DNA from: Sphingomonas sp. | GTDB lineage: Bacteria; Pseudomonadota; Alphaproteobacteria; Sphingomonadales; Sphingomonadaceae | Assembly (NCBI GenBank): GCA_017418975.1 | Contig: JAFOMG010000002.1 | Coordinates: 170,125-234,124, forward strand | Direction of reading: 5' to 3' | DNA: 64,000 nt | In this document: positions 962 to 63,651 of the stretch, one piece after another | Numbering within the stretch: position 1 is the stretch's first letter | How the letters are laid out: each line of letters starts with the position of its first letter | Translations under genes and position numbers: made by a program | The notes under the pieces: generated by a model | What the model was told of the DNA's origin: nothing | Databases searched by the model: none | What the model saw: only the letters and a program-made list of their open reading frames with translations

Positions 962-969
962 ATTATAGG
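962..969 (-). promoter_or_regulatory. -10-like box CCTATAAT upstream of the AlgE-like gene
   Basis: Read on the minus strand the sequence is CATCCTATAATTG, matching the box found before the flagellar operons of this window. It sits 30 bases upstream of the TTG start. No TTGACA-like -35 is visible at 16-18 bp. Confidence 0.5.
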
Positions 970-1035
970 ATGATTCGCAAACTCCGGTTCACCCTTGCGG
1001 AAACTGCGCCGCCTCCGAGTGAATCCGGGAATAGC

Positions 1036-12120: not shown

Positions 12121-12164
12121 ATTTGCCGGCGCGGCAACGCCGGCCGGCAAATCCTTCCTATAAT
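12121..12164 (+). promoter_or_regulatory. motA-chemotaxis operon promoter region with inverted repeat
   Basis: TATAAT occupies 12159-12164 within CTTCCTATAATTC. Just upstream, ATTTGCCGGC (12121-12130) and GCCGGCAAAT (12143-12152) form a perfect 10-bp inverted repeat. The arms contain the CGGCA/TGCCG half sites of ftr-like elements in an outward arrangement. The repeat could be a regulator site or a hairpin ending the methyltransferase transcript; it has no T-run. Confidence 0.5.
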
Positions 12165-23683: not shown

Positions 23684-23696
23684 GGCAATTTTTGCC
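23684..23696. promoter_or_regulatory. ftr-like palindrome between fliN and flgC
   Basis: GGCAATTTTTGCC, an inverted GGCAA/TTGCC repeat like the Caulobacter FlbD-binding ftr element. It lies between two divergent boxes, directly abutting the flgC box and 41.5 bp from the fliN box, so one protein could affect both. Confidence 0.6.
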
Positions 23697-26758: not shown

Positions 26759-28060
26759 TCAGAACTTCAGCCGCGCCCCCGCCGAGAGCACGATGGCATG
26801 GGCGTCGCGCAGCTCGCCATCGGTGAGGATCGGCGTCTGCGCGGCGGTGCCGGCATAGGCGGCGGTCACGCGGTCGATCGGCGCGTCGGCGAAGGTGACA
26901 TAATTGGCGGCCAGGTCGAACGAGAGCTTCTTGTTCGCCGCGAGGCTGCCGCCCACGCCGAAGTTCCAGCGGTTCGAATCCGGCACCCGGGCATCGCGCT
27001 CGCCGTCCTGGGTCGGCGTGATCGCGCGCTGGACGCCGGCGCGCAGCGTCACCTTGGGCGACAGGGCATAGTCGACGCCGCCGGCATAGCTCCAGCTGGT
27101 GCGGTAGTTCTCGGGGATCGCCTGGTTGACCGGCGCGCCCAGGCGGATCGCGTCGAACTTGTCCCAGCCATAGCGGATCACCTGCGCGTTCAGGGTCAGC
27201 TTGTCGGTGGCGGCGAAGCGGGCGCCGACGATCGCCTGGGACGGGGTGTAGAACTTCGCCTGGACGCCCGAGAGCTGCATGTTCGACGTGGCGAGCGGGC
27301 CGACCAGGCCCGAGACGGTGAGGTCGCCCTTCAGCGTGTGCTCGATCGCCGACTTGTAGCTGAGGCCCAGGGTGAAGCGGCGCGAGTGCAGCTGCACGCC
27401 CGCGGTCCAGCCGAGATCCCAGCCGTCGCCCTTAAGCTCCTGATGCCCGTCGGGCAGCACCGCCGCCAGATTCGGCAGCGCATTGCTGAGGCTGGCATCG
27501 GTATATTCGATGTTCAGCCCGGCGCCGACGCGCAGCCAGTCGGTCACCGCCACGCCGATGCTGGGCTGGATGTCGATCGTGCGCAGCTTCGTCCGGTCGG
27601 CGCTGTAGCGTGCCCAGCTGTCCGCCGGATAGTCGGTGGTGAAGCTGTAGGGCGAGGTGATCGACACGCCGAGCGCGATGCGATCGTTCAGCGGCACGGC
27701 GATCGCGCCCGAGGGGAGCACGCCGTTGTTGATCGGATTGCGGGTGACCCCGTTGCCGCCCACCGGCGCGGGCGGCTGGCCCGGGCGGACGATCAGCGTG
27801 CCGCTGTCGGCAACCTCGCCGCGCGGCAGGATGACCGAGGCGGAGATCGTCGCGTCGCCACTATCGATGCCGCCGATCGCGGCGGGGTTCCACCAGAGCG
27901 ACGCGGCGCCGGTATCGGCGGCCTCGCCCGAAAAGGCACGGCCGGCCGCGCGGGCCGATTGTTCCTGGAGATAGAAGGCCTGGGCCTGGGCAGCCTGGGA
28001 GAAGCCGAGCAGCGCGGTCAGCGCGCTGCCGGCGGCCAGCGAATATTTGAAGGGGGACAT
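26759..28060 (-). CDS. FadL/OmpP1-type outer membrane transporter for hydrophobic compounds
   Basis: 433 residues with a signal peptide (cleavage near AAQAQA) and the family start AFYLQEQSARAAGRAFSG...ASLWWNPAAIG, then FTTDYPADSWARY and a beta-barrel ending ALVLSAGARLKF-like, F last. FadL-type channels pass long-chain fatty acids or aromatic hydrocarbons. The gene lies between flhB and fliX without a flagellar-type box; it is probably transcribed with the DUF2147 gene or from a promoter near the GTACGCGTAC palindrome at 28074-28083. Confidence 0.9.
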   Translation of the reverse strand: MSPFKYSLAAGSALTALLGFSQAAQAQAFYLQEQSARAAGRAFSGEAADTGAASLWWNPAAIGGIDSGDATISASVILPRGEVADSGTLIVRPGQPPAPVGGNGVTRNPINNGVLPSGAIAVPLNDRIALGVSITSPYSFTTDYPADSWARYSADRTKLRTIDIQPSIGVAVTDWLRVGAGLNIEYTDASLSNALPNLAAVLPDGHQELKGDGWDLGWTAGVQLHSRRFTLGLSYKSAIEHTLKGDLTVSGLVGPLATSNMQLSGVQAKFYTPSQAIVGARFAATDKLTLNAQVIRYGWDKFDAIRLGAPVNQAIPENYRTSWSYAGGVDYALSPKVTLRAGVQRAITPTQDGERDARVPDSNRWNFGVGGSLAANKKLSFDLAANYVTFADAPIDRVTAAYAGTAAQTPILTDGELRDAHAIVLSAGARLKF

Positions 28061-28109
28061 CGGGGTAATCCTTGTACGCGTACGGATACTGAGAACTCGG
28101 AAACGCGCG

Positions 28110-28529
28110 TCAGCGCACGCGGGTCCAGGTCTGGGTGCGGCAGAAGGGCTTGAACACGCAGCCGCGCAGATTGAGCTGGTCGTTGCCGGTCATGGTGATC
28201 TCGGCGCTATAGGTCTTGCCGTCCTCGGCATTGTAGATCTTGCCGCCATACCAGCCGCCATTCTGCGCGCTGAAGCCGGACAGGATCTGCAGCCCCATCA
28301 GCTTGCGCGTGCGCAGCGCCGCGGTGCCGTTGTTGCTGTCGGGCAGGTTCGGATTGGTGCGCAACTTGTCCGACCCGACGATCTTGCCGCAGATCGACGC
28401 GCCGCACCGGGTGATCTCGACTATACCGTTGTGAACGGGGGTCTTCCAGCGGCCGACCACGGCATCGGCGGGCTGGAGCGCGGGGGCCGCCGCGACGGCA
28501 AGCCCCATCAGCAAAGCCAACATAGGCAT
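28110..28529 (-). CDS. DUF2147 family periplasmic protein
   Basis: 138 residues from the ATG with GAGGAG before it. A signal peptide (to about residue 20) is followed by VGRWKTPVHNGIVEITRCGASICGKIVGSD and GGWYGGKIYNAEDGKTYSAEITM, the DUF2147 pattern, with Cys pairs including CVFKPFC. The function of the family is unknown; it is thought to be a lipocalin-like fold. It is 49 bases upstream of the FadL-type gene in the same direction. Confidence 0.85.
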   Translation of the reverse strand: MPMLALLMGLAVAAAPALQPADAVVGRWKTPVHNGIVEITRCGASICGKIVGSDKLRTNPNLPDSNNGTAALRTRKLMGLQILSGFSAQNGGWYGGKIYNAEDGKTYSAEITMTGNDQLNLRGCVFKPFCRTQTWTRVR

Positions 28530-28706
28530 ACTCTCCTCGAGGGAACTCCATGCCGCGCTCTGCCGGCCGGTCATGGAAGGAACGGCATCGCGCTTTCGAA
28601 CGCGAAACCGGTGGCGCCTCCCTAGGTTCCAAAAATCCGGTATGCAATTGCGTTCGGATTTGAAACTGAAAAGCCGAGGATGCCGTAGCGGAATGAAGGG
28701 GGCGGA

Positions 28707-29135
28707 TCAGGCCTTGAGATCGAGCTTGGCCAGTTCGACTCGGACGCGCAGCTCGATATCGGAGAGGATCGCGGCGAGCGCGGGATCGTCGGTGCGCTCG
28801 AAAGTCTCGGACCATTCGACGATCGCCTGGAGCCGCGCCGGGCTGACCACCCCGGCGACCAGCTCGCGATGGAGCTGGTCGAGCATGTCGATGCCGCGCT
28901 GGGCATCGACCGCCTGCTTGCGGCGGCGCTCGATCATCGGATCGGCGGCGGCGAGCGTGACGAGCATCGCGACCGAGGGGTTGAGCGCCTGGGTGGTTCC
29001 CGCGCCGGCTCCCGGGGGCAGGGGCGCCGGTGCAGCCGGGGCTTCCCCCTCCCCCACCGAGAAGCCGGACGCGACCTTGGGCAGCGCCGCCATCAGGCTG
29101 TGCAGCAAGGGTGCCTGCAGGTTCTCGATCCGCAC
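28707..29135 (-). CDS. fliX: Flagellar assembly regulator FliX
   Basis: 142 residues from a GTG with GGAGG ten bases upstream. The C-terminal half RRRKQAVDAQRGIDMLDQLHRELVAGVVSPARL... ending ELRVRVELAKLDLKA follows the FliX pattern. In Caulobacter FliX couples basal-body assembly to the activity of FlbD. A FlbD homologue is encoded at 38962, so both halves of that checkpoint are present, although the FlbD here looks unable to work with sigma-54. fliX is divergent from flgI. Confidence 0.85.
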   Translation of the reverse strand: MRIENLQAPLLHSLMAALPKVASGFSVGEGEAPAAPAPLPPGAGAGTTQALNPSVAMLVTLAAADPMIERRRKQAVDAQRGIDMLDQLHRELVAGVVSPARLQAIVEWSETFERTDDPALAAILSDIELRVRVELAKLDLKA

Positions 29136-34920: not shown

Positions 34921-34945
34921 CGCGATCCGCCCTGTCTCCCTTGCT

Positions 34946-34955
34946 CCTATAATAG
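34946..34955. promoter_or_regulatory. Shared quasi-symmetric -10 box between fliG and the propeller-protein/flgB operon
   Basis: CCTATAATAG reads TATAAT (34948-34953) toward fliG and, on the other strand, CTCTATTAT toward the propeller gene. The two hexamers overlap by five bases, so a single site can serve both directions. Confidence 0.55.
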
Positions 34956-36892: not shown

Positions 36893-36922
36893 GGCAAAAA
36901 TTTCCCCCGGCAAAAACTGCCG
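36893..36922. promoter_or_regulatory. Tandem ftr-like sites upstream of fliF
   Basis: GGCAAAAATTTCC (36893-36905, imperfect) and CGGCAAAAACTGCCG (36908-36922, near perfect) lie side by side. The second is very close to the Caulobacter ftr consensus as I remember it. Its centre is 25.5 bp upstream of the fliF -10 centre, overlapping the -35 position. FlbD represses fliF from a comparable site in Caulobacter. Confidence 0.65.
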
Positions 36923-36935
36923 CCTCCCCCGTCCC

Positions 36936-36943
36936 TCTATAAT
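36936..36943 (+). promoter_or_regulatory. -10-like box TCTATAAT of fliF-fliN-flbD
   Basis: CCCTCTATAATGATCG, 47 bases before the fliF TTG start. There is no TTGACA at -35; the tandem ftr-like sites occupy that position. Confidence 0.55.
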
Positions 36944-38608: not shown

Positions 38609-38959
38609 ATGGATACCGAACCCCATAACATCATTCCCACCGATCCCGCGATCGACCAGCCCGCGCCCGTGCTCGAGGATTTCGACAACCAGGGCGGCGC
38701 CGAGCCCCATCATGGCGGCGAAGGCCTGGAAGCCGTCCATGACGTTCCGGTGCGGGTGCAGGCCGTGCTGGGCCGCGCCCGCATGCCGATCGGCGAGCTG
38801 CTGCACCTGGGTGCCGGCACCGTGGTCGAGCTCGACCGGCGCGTCGGCGAGCCGGTGGACATCTTCGTCAACGACCGGCTGATCGCCCGCGGCGAAGTCG
38901 TGCTGATCGACAATGCCCTCGGCGTGACTCTCACCGAGATCGTCCGGGCCGAGCCTTGA
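38609..38959 (+). CDS. fliN: Flagellar C-ring protein FliN, longer paralogue
   Basis: 116 residues; an acidic His/Pro-rich N-terminal extension (~1-42) precedes the SpoA domain DVPVRVQAVLGRARMPIGELLHLGAGTVVELDRRVGEPVDIFVND. It lies between fliF and flbD, the classical alphaproteobacterial place of fliN, so it is probably the main C-ring FliN. The shorter copy is at 23389. Confidence 0.93.
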   Translation: MDTEPHNIIPTDPAIDQPAPVLEDFDNQGGAEPHHGGEGLEAVHDVPVRVQAVLGRARMPIGELLHLGAGTVVELDRRVGEPVDIFVNDRLIARGEVVLIDNALGVTLTEIVRAEP

Positions 38960-38961
38960 CG

Positions 38962-40299
38962 ATGGGACCGATCCGGATGTTGCTGATCGGCGCGCCGGGC
39001 AGCGAGTTCCGCCGCGCGGCGGAGCTGGCGCAGGGCGCCGGCGCGGAGGTCAGCATGGCCGACGCCCCTGCCCTCGCGCTGGAGGCGCTGCGCGAGCAGG
39101 GCGCCGATCTCGTGATGATCGACGTGCTGGAGGACGCGGTGGGCTTTCTGGACGATCTGCGCCGCGAGCGCTTCGTCGTGCCCGTGCTGGCCTGCGGAAT
39201 CTCCGCCCCCGCCGAGCGCGCGGTGGCGGCGATCCGTGCCGGCGCCCGCGACTATGTGCCCCTCCCCCCGCAGCGCGAGCTGATCGCGGCGGCCATCGCC
39301 TCGGTGGTGGAGCGCCAGGCGCAGGTGCCCATTGGCGGCCATCCGGTGCTCGATCGCGCCATGGCGCTCGCCGCCGCCGTCGCGCCGAGCGGCGCCCCCG
39401 TGCTCGTCCTGGGCGGCAAGGGCAGCGGCAAGGAGATGATGGCGCGCGAGATTCACCGGCTCTCCGGCCGGCCCGATCCGATCGTCTCGGTCGAATGCGC
39501 CGGCGTTGCCGCCGATGTCCTCGAATCCGAGCTGTTCGGGCATGAGGCGGGTGCCTTTCCGGGCGCCGCGGCGCGCCGGGTCGGCCGGCTCGAGAGCGTC
39601 CGGGGCGGCACGATCTTCCTGCGCGAAGTGGGCGCGCTCGCTCCCGCCACCCAGGCCCGGCTGCTCGCCGCGCTGATCGAGAAGCGCTTCGGCCGCCTGG
39701 GCGGCCAGGCGGAGATACCCTTCGCCGCGCGGCTGATCGCCTCGACCAGCATGGACCTGGAGGCCGCCGTGGCCGCCGGCAGCTTCCGCGAGGACCTGCT
39801 GGTGCGCTTGAGCCTGGCGCGTATCGAGGTGCCGCCGCTCGCCGAGCATGACGACGACATCGCCGCGCTGGCGGGGCATTTCATCGCGCAGTTCGCCCGG
39901 GGCGACGGGCTCTCCCCGCGCCCGCTCTCGGAAGACGCGATCGCAGTGCTGCGCGCCTATGGCTGGCCGGGCAACATCCGCGAGCTGAAGGAATGCATCC
40001 ACCGCGCCGCGCTGCTGGCCCATGGCCCGCTGATCGAGGCCGAGGACCTGACCCGCGCCGACGGGTCGCCGCTCGCGGCGCTGGTCTCGCTGCCGAGCGC
40101 CGACGGGCGGATCGAAGTCGACGGCCTGATCGGGCGCACGGTGGAGGAAGTGGAGCGCGAGCTGATCCTGGGCACGCTCGAGCGCTGCCACGGCAACCGC
40201 ACCTCCGCCTCGAACATCCTCGGCATCTCGGTGCGCACGATGCGCAACAAGCTGCGCACCTTCATCGAGGGCGGCATCGCCGTGCCGCCCGCGGCGTGA
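38962..40299 (+). CDS. flbD: FlbD-type flagellar regulator with degenerate sigma-54-activator motifs
   Basis: 445 residues from the ATG at 38962; a TTG overlapping the fliN stop (38956) is possible. The receiver-like domain (1-125) lacks the usual acidic triad, as in Caulobacter FlbD. The AAA+ domain (~135-365) has Walker A GGKGSGKE (151-158), Walker B IFLREV where the Asp is Arg221, and the sigma-54-contact loop GAFPGA (197-202) instead of GAFTGA. The arginine-finger region FREDLLVRL is kept. A Fis-type helix-turn-helix (NRTSASNILGISVRTMRNKL) ends the protein and would bind ftr sites. Loss of the Walker B Asp and the GAFTGA Thr suggests it does not activate sigma-54. I infer it works at the CCTATAAT promoters as a DNA-binding activator or repressor. 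Confidence 0.85.
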   Translation: MGPIRMLLIGAPGSEFRRAAELAQGAGAEVSMADAPALALEALREQGADLVMIDVLEDAVGFLDDLRRERFVVPVLACGISAPAERAVAAIRAGARDYVPLPPQRELIAAAIASVVERQAQVPIGGHPVLDRAMALAAAVAPSGAPVLVLGGKGSGKEMMAREIHRLSGRPDPIVSVECAGVAADVLESELFGHEAGAFPGAAARRVGRLESVRGGTIFLREVGALAPATQARLLAALIEKRFGRLGGQAEIPFAARLIASTSMDLEAAVAAGSFREDLLVRLSLARIEVPPLAEHDDDIAALAGHFIAQFARGDGLSPRPLSEDAIAVLRAYGWPGNIRELKECIHRAALLAHGPLIEAEDLTRADGSPLAALVSLPSADGRIEVDGLIGRTVEEVERELILGTLERCHGNRTSASNILGISVRTMRNKLRTFIEGGIAVPPAA

Positions 40300-42550: not shown

Positions 42551-42576
42551 GCGCGGACCGTTTCACCGGCGAACAT

Positions 42577-42584
42577 CCTATAAT
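42577..42584 (+). promoter_or_regulatory. -10-like box CCTATAAT of fliK-flgD
   Basis: CATCCTATAATGAAG, 41 bases before the fliK ATG. No ftr-like palindrome is visible upstream. Confidence 0.5.
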
Positions 42585-47196: not shown

Positions 47197-47204
47197 ATTA
47201 TAGG
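47197..47204 (-). promoter_or_regulatory. -10-like box CCTATAAT of fliC
   Basis: CATCCTATAATTTTTCCC on the minus strand, giving a leader of about 95 bases. A CAAAATT/AATTTTG inverted repeat (47210-47231) sits directly upstream in place of an ftr-like site. No FliA-type sequence is seen. Confidence 0.6.
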
Positions 47205-47234
47205 ATGACCAAAATTACGGCGCGAATTTTGATG

Positions 47235-50166: not shown

Positions 50167-50179
50167 GGCAACAATTGCC
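50167..50179. promoter_or_regulatory. ftr-like palindrome between flgF and fliL
   Basis: GGCAACAATTGCC, arms GGCAA/TTGCC. Its centre is 21.5 bp upstream of the fliL -10 and just downstream of the flgF start point if flgF uses the shared box. Confidence 0.6.
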
Positions 50180-50189
50180 GGGCGCTGAT

Positions 50190-50199
50190 CCTATAATAG
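50190..50199. promoter_or_regulatory. Shared quasi-symmetric -10 box between flgF and fliL operons
   Basis: CCTATAATAG within TCCTATAATAGGA, a 13-bp sequence that is its own reverse complement except at the middle base. TATAAT (50192-50197) faces fliL; TATTAT on the other strand faces flgF. Confidence 0.6.
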
Positions 50200-60341: not shown

Positions 60342-60354
60342 GGCAAAAATTGCC
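60342..60354. promoter_or_regulatory. ftr-like palindrome between flgE and flbT
   Basis: GGCAAAAATTGCC, perfect GGCAA/TTGCC arms. Its centre is 40.5 bp upstream of the flbT -10 centre. Confidence 0.65.
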
Positions 60355-60383
60355 GGGTGCGGCGCCGGCGATGCGAAAGGCAT

Positions 60384-60391
60384 CCTATAAT
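60384..60391 (+). promoter_or_regulatory. -10-like box CCTATAAT of flbT-fliI-fliJ
   Basis: CATCCTATAATGCAGCC, 31 bases before the flbT ATG. Confidence 0.6.
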
Positions 60392-63633: not shown

Positions 63634-63643
63634 ATTATTTTAT

Positions 63644-63651
63644 CCTATAAT
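63644..63651 (+). promoter_or_regulatory. -10-like box CCTATAAT upstream of the last gene
   Basis: TATCCTATAATGATGG, directly after the transglycosylase gene and ~210 bases before the final start codon. The spacer between is AT-rich and otherwise empty; it holds TTAAGGGTTCTGTTAA, a near miss of a CtrA site (N8 rather than N7). Confidence 0.45.

Follow-up and report, generated by a model that had tools for sequence, protein, structure and literature searches.

A sphingomonad-clade FlbD without sigma-54 activation motifs and a putative change of flagellar promoter type

Across a sphingomonad clade, the flagellar regulator FlbD has lost both the GAFTGA loop and the Walker B Asp, and the flagellar genes of the same clade appear to lack recognizable sigma-54 promoters, which would have been lost alongside the sigma-54-driving parts of the protein. 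Because the two have disappeared together, sphingomonad FlbD probably controls another promoter type by a different mechanism. The reading that we favor, at a probability of roughly 0.55, is that the clade's FlbD would be a FliX-partnered, hydrolysis-dead and sigma-54-independent regulator that acts at the -35 region, and is likelier to be an activator than a repressor.

An altered FlbD in a flagellar gene cluster

The window (64,000 nucleotides of a Sphingomonas sp. contig, JAFOMG010000002.1) holds a flagellar and chemotaxis cluster, as identified with Pfam: fliP, flgC, fliE, fliQ, fliR, flhB, fliX, flgI, flgB, a FlaEY-like gene, fliG, fliH, fliF, fliN and flbD are followed by flhA, fliK, flgD, flagellin, flgH, flgG, flgF, fliL, fliM, flgL, flgK, flgE and fliI (fliH, flgL and FlaEY being named from sub-cut-off matches or from position, and flgB and flgC from a general rod-protein model). 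As in the 14 other clusters built from genomes with an altered FlbD, flbD is located between fliN and flhA. Genes for a TodX/FadL-type outer membrane protein and a DUF2147 protein also lie within the cluster, between flhB and fliX (26759-28574).

The flbD reading frame spans 38956-40299 if read from a TTG (447 residues), or 38962-40299 from the ATG adopted in a preliminary description of this DNA (445 residues). Its product matches Sigma54_activat (residues 128-290), AAA_lid_14 (297-367) and HTH_8 (395-434), all above the Pfam cut-off, and has the AAA+ fold of sigma-54 activators; the Response_reg match is below cut-off (25.8 against 30.2 bits), the receiver-like domain being seen in the predicted structure as five alternating strands and helices, which completes the receiver-AAA+-HTH_8 architecture of FlbD orthologs. 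The positions that we take, from the NtrC family, to be those of the Walker motifs, Arg finger and sensors were placed by alignment. Of the features expected of a sigma-54-activating enhancer-binding protein (bEBP), neither the GAFTGA loop nor the Walker B Asp-Glu pair is present, GAFPGA and Arg-Glu standing in their places (Table 1). As the preliminary description had stated, both substitutions can be read directly from the sequence, and Walker A, the arginine-finger region and the Fis-type DNA-binding end are retained; so are the sensor II Arg (R342) and E224, next to the Walker B Arg. The protein therefore displays the combination that characterizes sigma-70-acting NtrC-like regulators, a lost GAFTGA and a kept DNA-binding domain.

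Table 1. Positions of flbD, its motifs and the associated sites within the window
Feature	Position	Strand	Sequence or basis
TCCTATAAT element	962..970	-	
TCCTATAAT element at start of motA ORF	12156..12164	+	
FlbD palindrome between fliN-like/fliP and flgC operons	23684..23696	+	GGCAATTTTTGCC
fliX, known FlbD partner, divergent from flgI	28707..29135	-	Pfam FliX 66.4 bits, cut-off 25
TCCTATAAT element, fliG/FlaEY-like divergent promoter	34945..34953	+	
FlbD palindrome (ftr-like) upstream of fliF, center about -35	36909..36921	+	GGCAAAAACTGCC
fliF TATAAT (-10 type)	36938..36943	+	counted from sequence
flbD, altered FlbD (REC-AAA+-HTH_8)	38962..40299	+	ORF and Pfam
Receiver-like domain with Asp56	38974..39312	+	alignment and structure model
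Walker A GGKGSGKE, Lys present	39412..39435	+	
GAFPGA replacing GAFTGA, sigma-54 contact loop	39550..39567	+	codons GGT GCC TTT CCG GGC GCC
Arg223 codon (CGC) replacing Walker B Asp	39622..39624	+	GGTIFLREV
Arg-finger region R278-R284, both Arg positions present	39787..39807	+	
Fis-type HTH (HTH_8)	40138..40257	+	Pfam E 4.6e-13
TCCTATAAT element upstream of fliK	42576..42584	+	
TCCTATAAT element upstream of flagellin	47197..47205	-	
FlbD palindrome between flgF and fliL-fliM	50167..50179	+	GGCAACAATTGCC; center about -31 of fliL promoter, by arithmetic
TCCTATAAT element, fliL/flgF divergent promoter	50189..50197	+	
FlbD palindrome between flgE and fliI side	60342..60354	+	GGCAAAAATTGCC
TCCTATAAT element, fliI side of flgE	60383..60391	+	
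TCCTATAAT element	63643..63651	+	

Distribution and origin of the altered form

GAFTGA occurs in none of 87 FlbD loci of the sphingomonad clade, as against all 24 FlbDs outside it, and the Walker B Asp is replaced by Arg in 85 of the 87, against 24/24 with Asp-Glu and 0/24 with Arg outside; the 87 include one locus with an apparent frameshift at Walker B (L113) and one with Ala there (L118); a further locus, L137, is truncated by a contig end. An alignment of this kind had been proposed as a way of seeing whether Pro and Arg are fixed among sphingomonads: the Arg is nearly so and the Pro is not, the fourth position of the loop being P in 65 loci, A in 7, E in 5, a gap in 5, D in 3 and V in 2. 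Elsewhere in the protein, the Walker A Lys is kept in 81/87 loci (Arg in the other 6), Asp56 of the receiver-like domain in 83, R278 in 77 and R284 in 81; the sensor II Arg is absent from 26, and the helix-turn-helix stretch GNRTSASxILGISVRTMRNKL is nearly invariant.

In a tree of 41 chosen altered and 28 intact rows (L113, L116 and L137 excluded; two long-branch warnings stand), a single change explains the altered form (SH-aLRT 100). Confinement of the substitutions to one strain, which the preliminary description had named as evidence against its reading, is therefore not what is seen: they are clade-wide. Among named genomes, the best-scoring 79 of 376 relatives found comprise 50 loci with a changed and 29 with an intact FlbD, the nearest, among the matches listed, being Sphingomonas sp. 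CBMAI 2297, whose FlbD is 100% identical to that of the window. Presence counts are lower bounds, since the family search scored four candidates per genome and the genus search five; weaker family-search rows were excluded from the FlbD counts, and 16 that were inspected (L057-L072) carry another HTH and are presumably NtrX-like. Two genomes, G481 (L120, L128) and G554 (L124, L127), each carry two different altered FlbD copies.

Sigma-54 sites in flagellar clusters

Cluster stretches were built for 10 genomes with an intact and 15 with an altered FlbD, chosen for long contigs and to take in the four genomes with a single FlhA. In the intact clusters, a strict sigma-54 pattern gives 26 matches, compared with 4, 5, 6, 12, 15 and 17 at wrong spacings, and in 9 of the 10 a consensus site precedes the hook operon (fliK-flgD-flgE), its distance to the mapped gene being 155-2062 bp. 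In the altered clusters, the same pattern does not rise above control (11 versus 4, 5, 9, 9, 11 and 31); seven of the 11 matches fall within flagellar genes, and the other four lie at least 2 kb before a same-strand mapped flagellar gene or have none after them. The window itself contains one match, inside fliP (0, 0, 0, 0, 1 and 4 at wrong spacings), and so lacks the consensus sigma-54 promoters expected in the target cluster of a bEBP, as far as consensus sites go, departed ones escaping the pattern. A second flagellar system of the host, on contig C30, served as a positive control and has three strict sites against 0, 0, 0, 0, 0 and 1.

The two sets are less clearly told apart by a looser pattern (intact, 56 versus 34-53; altered, 45 versus 38-102). 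A start-anchored matrix scan, weak because fliK starts are misplaced, found sites in 4/61 intact regions and 1/249 altered ones (before flhA of G633). A loose matrix scan around flbD was discarded as too permissive, its wrong-spacing matches being nearly as common, and the strict pattern with spacing controls was used instead.

A conserved palindrome and TATAAT-type promoters

When gapped words were counted de novo in the 227 upstream regions from altered genomes, with both sides of divergent pairs included, the palindrome GGCA-N5-TGCC and a CCTATAAT/CTATTATAG word emerged. At spacing 5 the palindrome is present in 46/227 altered regions (0-5 at other spacings) and in 17/56 intact ones (0-2), an enrichment in both sets which implies that altered and intact FlbDs share a site; by analogy with FlbD biology, as given in the available part of PMC3930126, this would be the ftr site, and the conserved palindrome is consistent with the binding to ftr sites that marks an FlbD. 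It stands out only upstream of flagellar genes, and the four window copies adjoin flagellar operons: over the window as a whole spacing 5 is not commoner than the others (4 versus 0-8), nor is CGGCA-N5-TGCC enriched in the whole host genome (123 versus 105 for the reversed control).

The palindrome is found in the fliF region of 13 of the 15 altered genomes, its center lying at -32 to -35 in 11 of the 12 that are measurable, with positions relative to a transcription start assumed from TATAAT. Within the named set, which overlaps the 15 genomes in species, the fliF stretch carries it in 47 of the 50 altered loci (0, 2, 0 and 2 at spacings 3, 4, 6 and 7); a TATAA word follows in 42, and 41 of 43 site pairs are at -32 to -35, the others at -50 and -51. 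At fliN-fliP the palindrome is at about -50 (-50/-51), and at flgE it has no fixed distance (-47, -67, -78, -99 and -112 in five genomes). A copy overlaps the flgC -10 in a single genome, G614, and at flgF the palindrome is found downstream of where transcription is presumed to start.

In 9 of 10 intact genomes, the fliF palindrome is followed by a TTAAC-type, CtrA-like box (read by eye), so that the site is probably ancestral. No altered row of the named set has TTAAC between palindrome and TATAA, and a few have it after TATAA. Neither a strict CtrA pattern, TTAA-N7-TTAA (0/227 altered and 1/56 intact regions), nor TTAAC alone is informative, the latter not exceeding its reversed control (23 versus 54 altered, 25 versus 23 intact).

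A further element, TCCTATAAT, has 10 copies in the 4.69 Mb host genome, 8 of them inside the window. It is concentrated in the flagellar regulon of altered genomes: 60 of its 94 copies in the 15 genomes lie in cluster stretches, where the reversed control occurs once, and 34 lie outside, against 44 for the control; no copy occurs in the clusters of three of these genomes (G695, G216 and G158). Cluster stretches account for 4 of the 104 copies in the 10 intact genomes. Where flagellar operons diverge, at the fliG/FlaEY-like and fliL/flgF promoters and at homologous places, there are self-complementary TCCTATTATAGGA-like words that may act as bidirectional promoters. No conserved -35 was found among 103 pooled promoters of altered clusters; the pooled CCTATAAT promoters share a weak A-tract at about -51.

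Candidate mode of action

The proposal of the preliminary description, a rewired FlbD that works without sigma-54, is supported by the clade-wide changes, by sigma-54 sites that do not rise above control, by the kept palindrome and by promoters of the CCTATAAT type. Judged from their sequence, the TATAAT-type promoters are at most suggestive of regulation with sigma-70 RNA polymerase. We propose that the altered FlbD would be unable to hydrolyze ATP productively or to remodel the sigma-54 holoenzyme, is predicted to bind GGCA-N5-TGCC as its ancestors did, and would have RNA polymerase as its direct target at promoters of the TATAAT type, working from the -35 region at fliF and fliL-fliM and from about -50 at fliN-fliP, its activity still being gated by FliX and flagellar assembly. 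With the Walker A Lys and its own Glu224 kept, the protein may still bind ATP or have residual activity.

Such an FlbD would most likely activate, replacing the missing -35 hexamer and the CtrA-like box of the intact relatives' fliF: activation is suggested by a -10 that has, where its -35 would be, a regulator site held at a nearly constant distance. Caulobacter points toward repression instead, since its FlbD represses fliF through ftr4 (available text of PMC3930126) and a site over the -35 may thus mean the same here; moreover, the fixed spacing could be conserved by descent. Activation is accordingly placed ahead of repression, not decisively.

A tentative extension of the activator reading is that the whole flagellar regulon of the clade may have left sigma-54 (and, at fliF, also CtrA) for a regulon-specific promoter class with TCCTATAAT, no -35 and a dedicated factor, the ATPase-dead FlbD being a FliX-gated activator that stands in for the -35. 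If so, the fixed Arg223 would lock the AAA+ domain into a single state and make it a structural switch rather than a motor. No dedicated sigma factor was seen among the window ORFs scanned with Pfam, a subset of which several match no family, and the list of cluster genes common to altered genomes is clouded by antisense ORFs.

A less likely alternative to activation is that FlbD has lost its activator job and retains only its ancestral one, shutting off the early genes (fliF, fliL-fliM, fliP) by covering the -35, while another factor, which reads TCCTATAAT, turns on the late genes. Repression of fliF by Caulobacter FlbD (PMC3930126 and PMC3096577, in the parts available), the probable ancestry of the fliF site, its overlap with the -35 there and the positions at flgC and flgF would agree with this. 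These promoters, however, have no recognizable -35 to block, the fliF spacing stays within 3 bp in 11 of 12 genomes, and the sites of fliN-fliP and flgE lie upstream, as is usual for activators.

Relation to known regulators

FlbD of Caulobacter crescentus resembles the sphingomonad protein in domain order, flagellar role, FliX partner and action at ftr sites that precede fliF and late genes (PMC3930126, PMC3096577); it differs, according to the accessible portions of PMC10274813 and PMC3930126, in having GAFTGA and activating sigma-54 promoters, whereas the sphingomonad protein has neither that loop nor the Walker B Asp, and consensus sites in its cluster do not exceed control. NtrC of Caulobacter and Rhodobacter capsulatus offers another alphaproteobacterial parallel, a member of the NtrC family without GAFTGA that is reported at sigma-70 promoters, although with L1 deletions and another regulon (PMC10274813, in part); Caulobacter NtrC depends on its Walker A Lys and on its Walker B Asp, a position occupied by Arg in the window FlbD. 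VpsR of Vibrio cholerae, HupR, TyrR and DhaR are members of the NtrC family for which loss, or probable loss, of the sigma-54 interaction is listed; they belong to other lineages with other targets, and the available sections of PMC3162934 describe no accompanying loss of sigma-54 sites across a clade. VpsR is among the sequence and fold matches of the window FlbD. The same sections give T to P at position 4 as the preferred GAFTGA deviation among about 110 homologs, which may already include sphingomonad FlbDs.

Within the open-licence PMC literature, a sphingomonad FlbD without GAFTGA was not found in print, the listed texts on FlbD and GAFTGA concerning Caulobacter NtrC. PMC8921679, in the passages available, calls the FlbD of Sphingomonas sp. 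WG an activator of sigma-54 and gives strain S2M10 as similar to WG in organization. The S2M10 protein (L301) is of the altered form, which would put the label of the WG protein in doubt. The clade would offer a natural case of an AAA+ sigma-54 activator and its promoters changing together while the DNA-binding code stayed unchanged, and its intact relatives, altered relatives and single-system genomes make a switch from sigma-54 to another mode of initiation testable.

Sigma-54, FliA and additional flagellar systems

rpoN was found in all 27 altered-FlbD genomes searched and in 54 of 55 genomes overall, the exception (G082) being 67% complete, and the host carries other enhancer-binding proteins with GAFTGA. 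Both observations would suit an FlbD that still activates sigma-54, through an unusual loop, at off-consensus promoters or as part of hexamers mixed with a different enhancer-binding protein, a reading that we consider very improbable given the Arg at the Mg2+-binding Asp, the absence of the sensor II Arg from 26 of 87 loci and consensus sites that are not above control in 15 altered clusters. Two published cases nevertheless weigh against the favored reading: in the accessible text of the respective papers, some sigma-54 transcripts go up in HTH mutants of Caulobacter NtrC, a protein without GAFTGA (PMC12421884), and remodeling by PspF E108Q is described despite its lack of hydrolysis (PMC4132715).

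FliA is strongly matched in 21 of the 27 altered genomes (17 above cut-off, 4 at 175-180 bits), in 4/4 flbD-less ones and in 0/24 intact ones. As a replacement sigma factor it was rejected as a general explanation, because in the host it accompanies the second system, which has FliA, FlhA and a GAFTGA regulator on contig C30, and because it is missing from the four single-FlhA genomes and G023 and split in G026. Those four altered-FlbD genomes (G002, G190, G633 and G158) have just one FlhA each, so that a second system cannot account for control of their flagellum. The host itself has three FlhA genes, in the window, at G000:C30:30207-36520 (L232, beside FliA and the GAFTGA regulator) and at G000:C21:3253-5181 (L234, at the start of that contig), and so probably holds three flagellar systems.

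Selection and the FliX partner

Omega is at most 0.22 in every domain of six altered subclades, which places all of them under purifying selection; for the L1/Walker B segment it is 0.017-0.19 in altered subclades and 0.009-0.013 in two intact ones, the third being saturated. That FlbD is an unimportant remnant drifting toward loss, as its long branches in the tree, an AAA+ domain whose rate of evolution, for most altered subclades, equals or exceeds that of the receiver and the 219 of 295 genus genomes without a match at E 1e-80 (five candidates scored per genome) might suggest, is highly unlikely in view of these omega values, the near-invariant HTH and Arg223, the near-fixed fliF palindromes and the company of FliX.

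FliX is present in 25 of 27 altered genomes (46-79 bits; missing from G216 and G158), in 22 of 24 intact ones (84-134 bits; missing from G116 and G048) and in none of four flbD-less members of the genus, all of which have FlhA. This distribution, together with the lower scores in altered genomes, indicates that FliX and FlbD have remained a pair and that FliX has itself diverged. The Pfam match of FliX begins at position 24 or later in 22 of the 25 altered genomes, and at position 1 or 2 in 21 of the 22 intact ones; as aligned, the N-terminal part of FliX appears to be missing or diverged in altered genomes.
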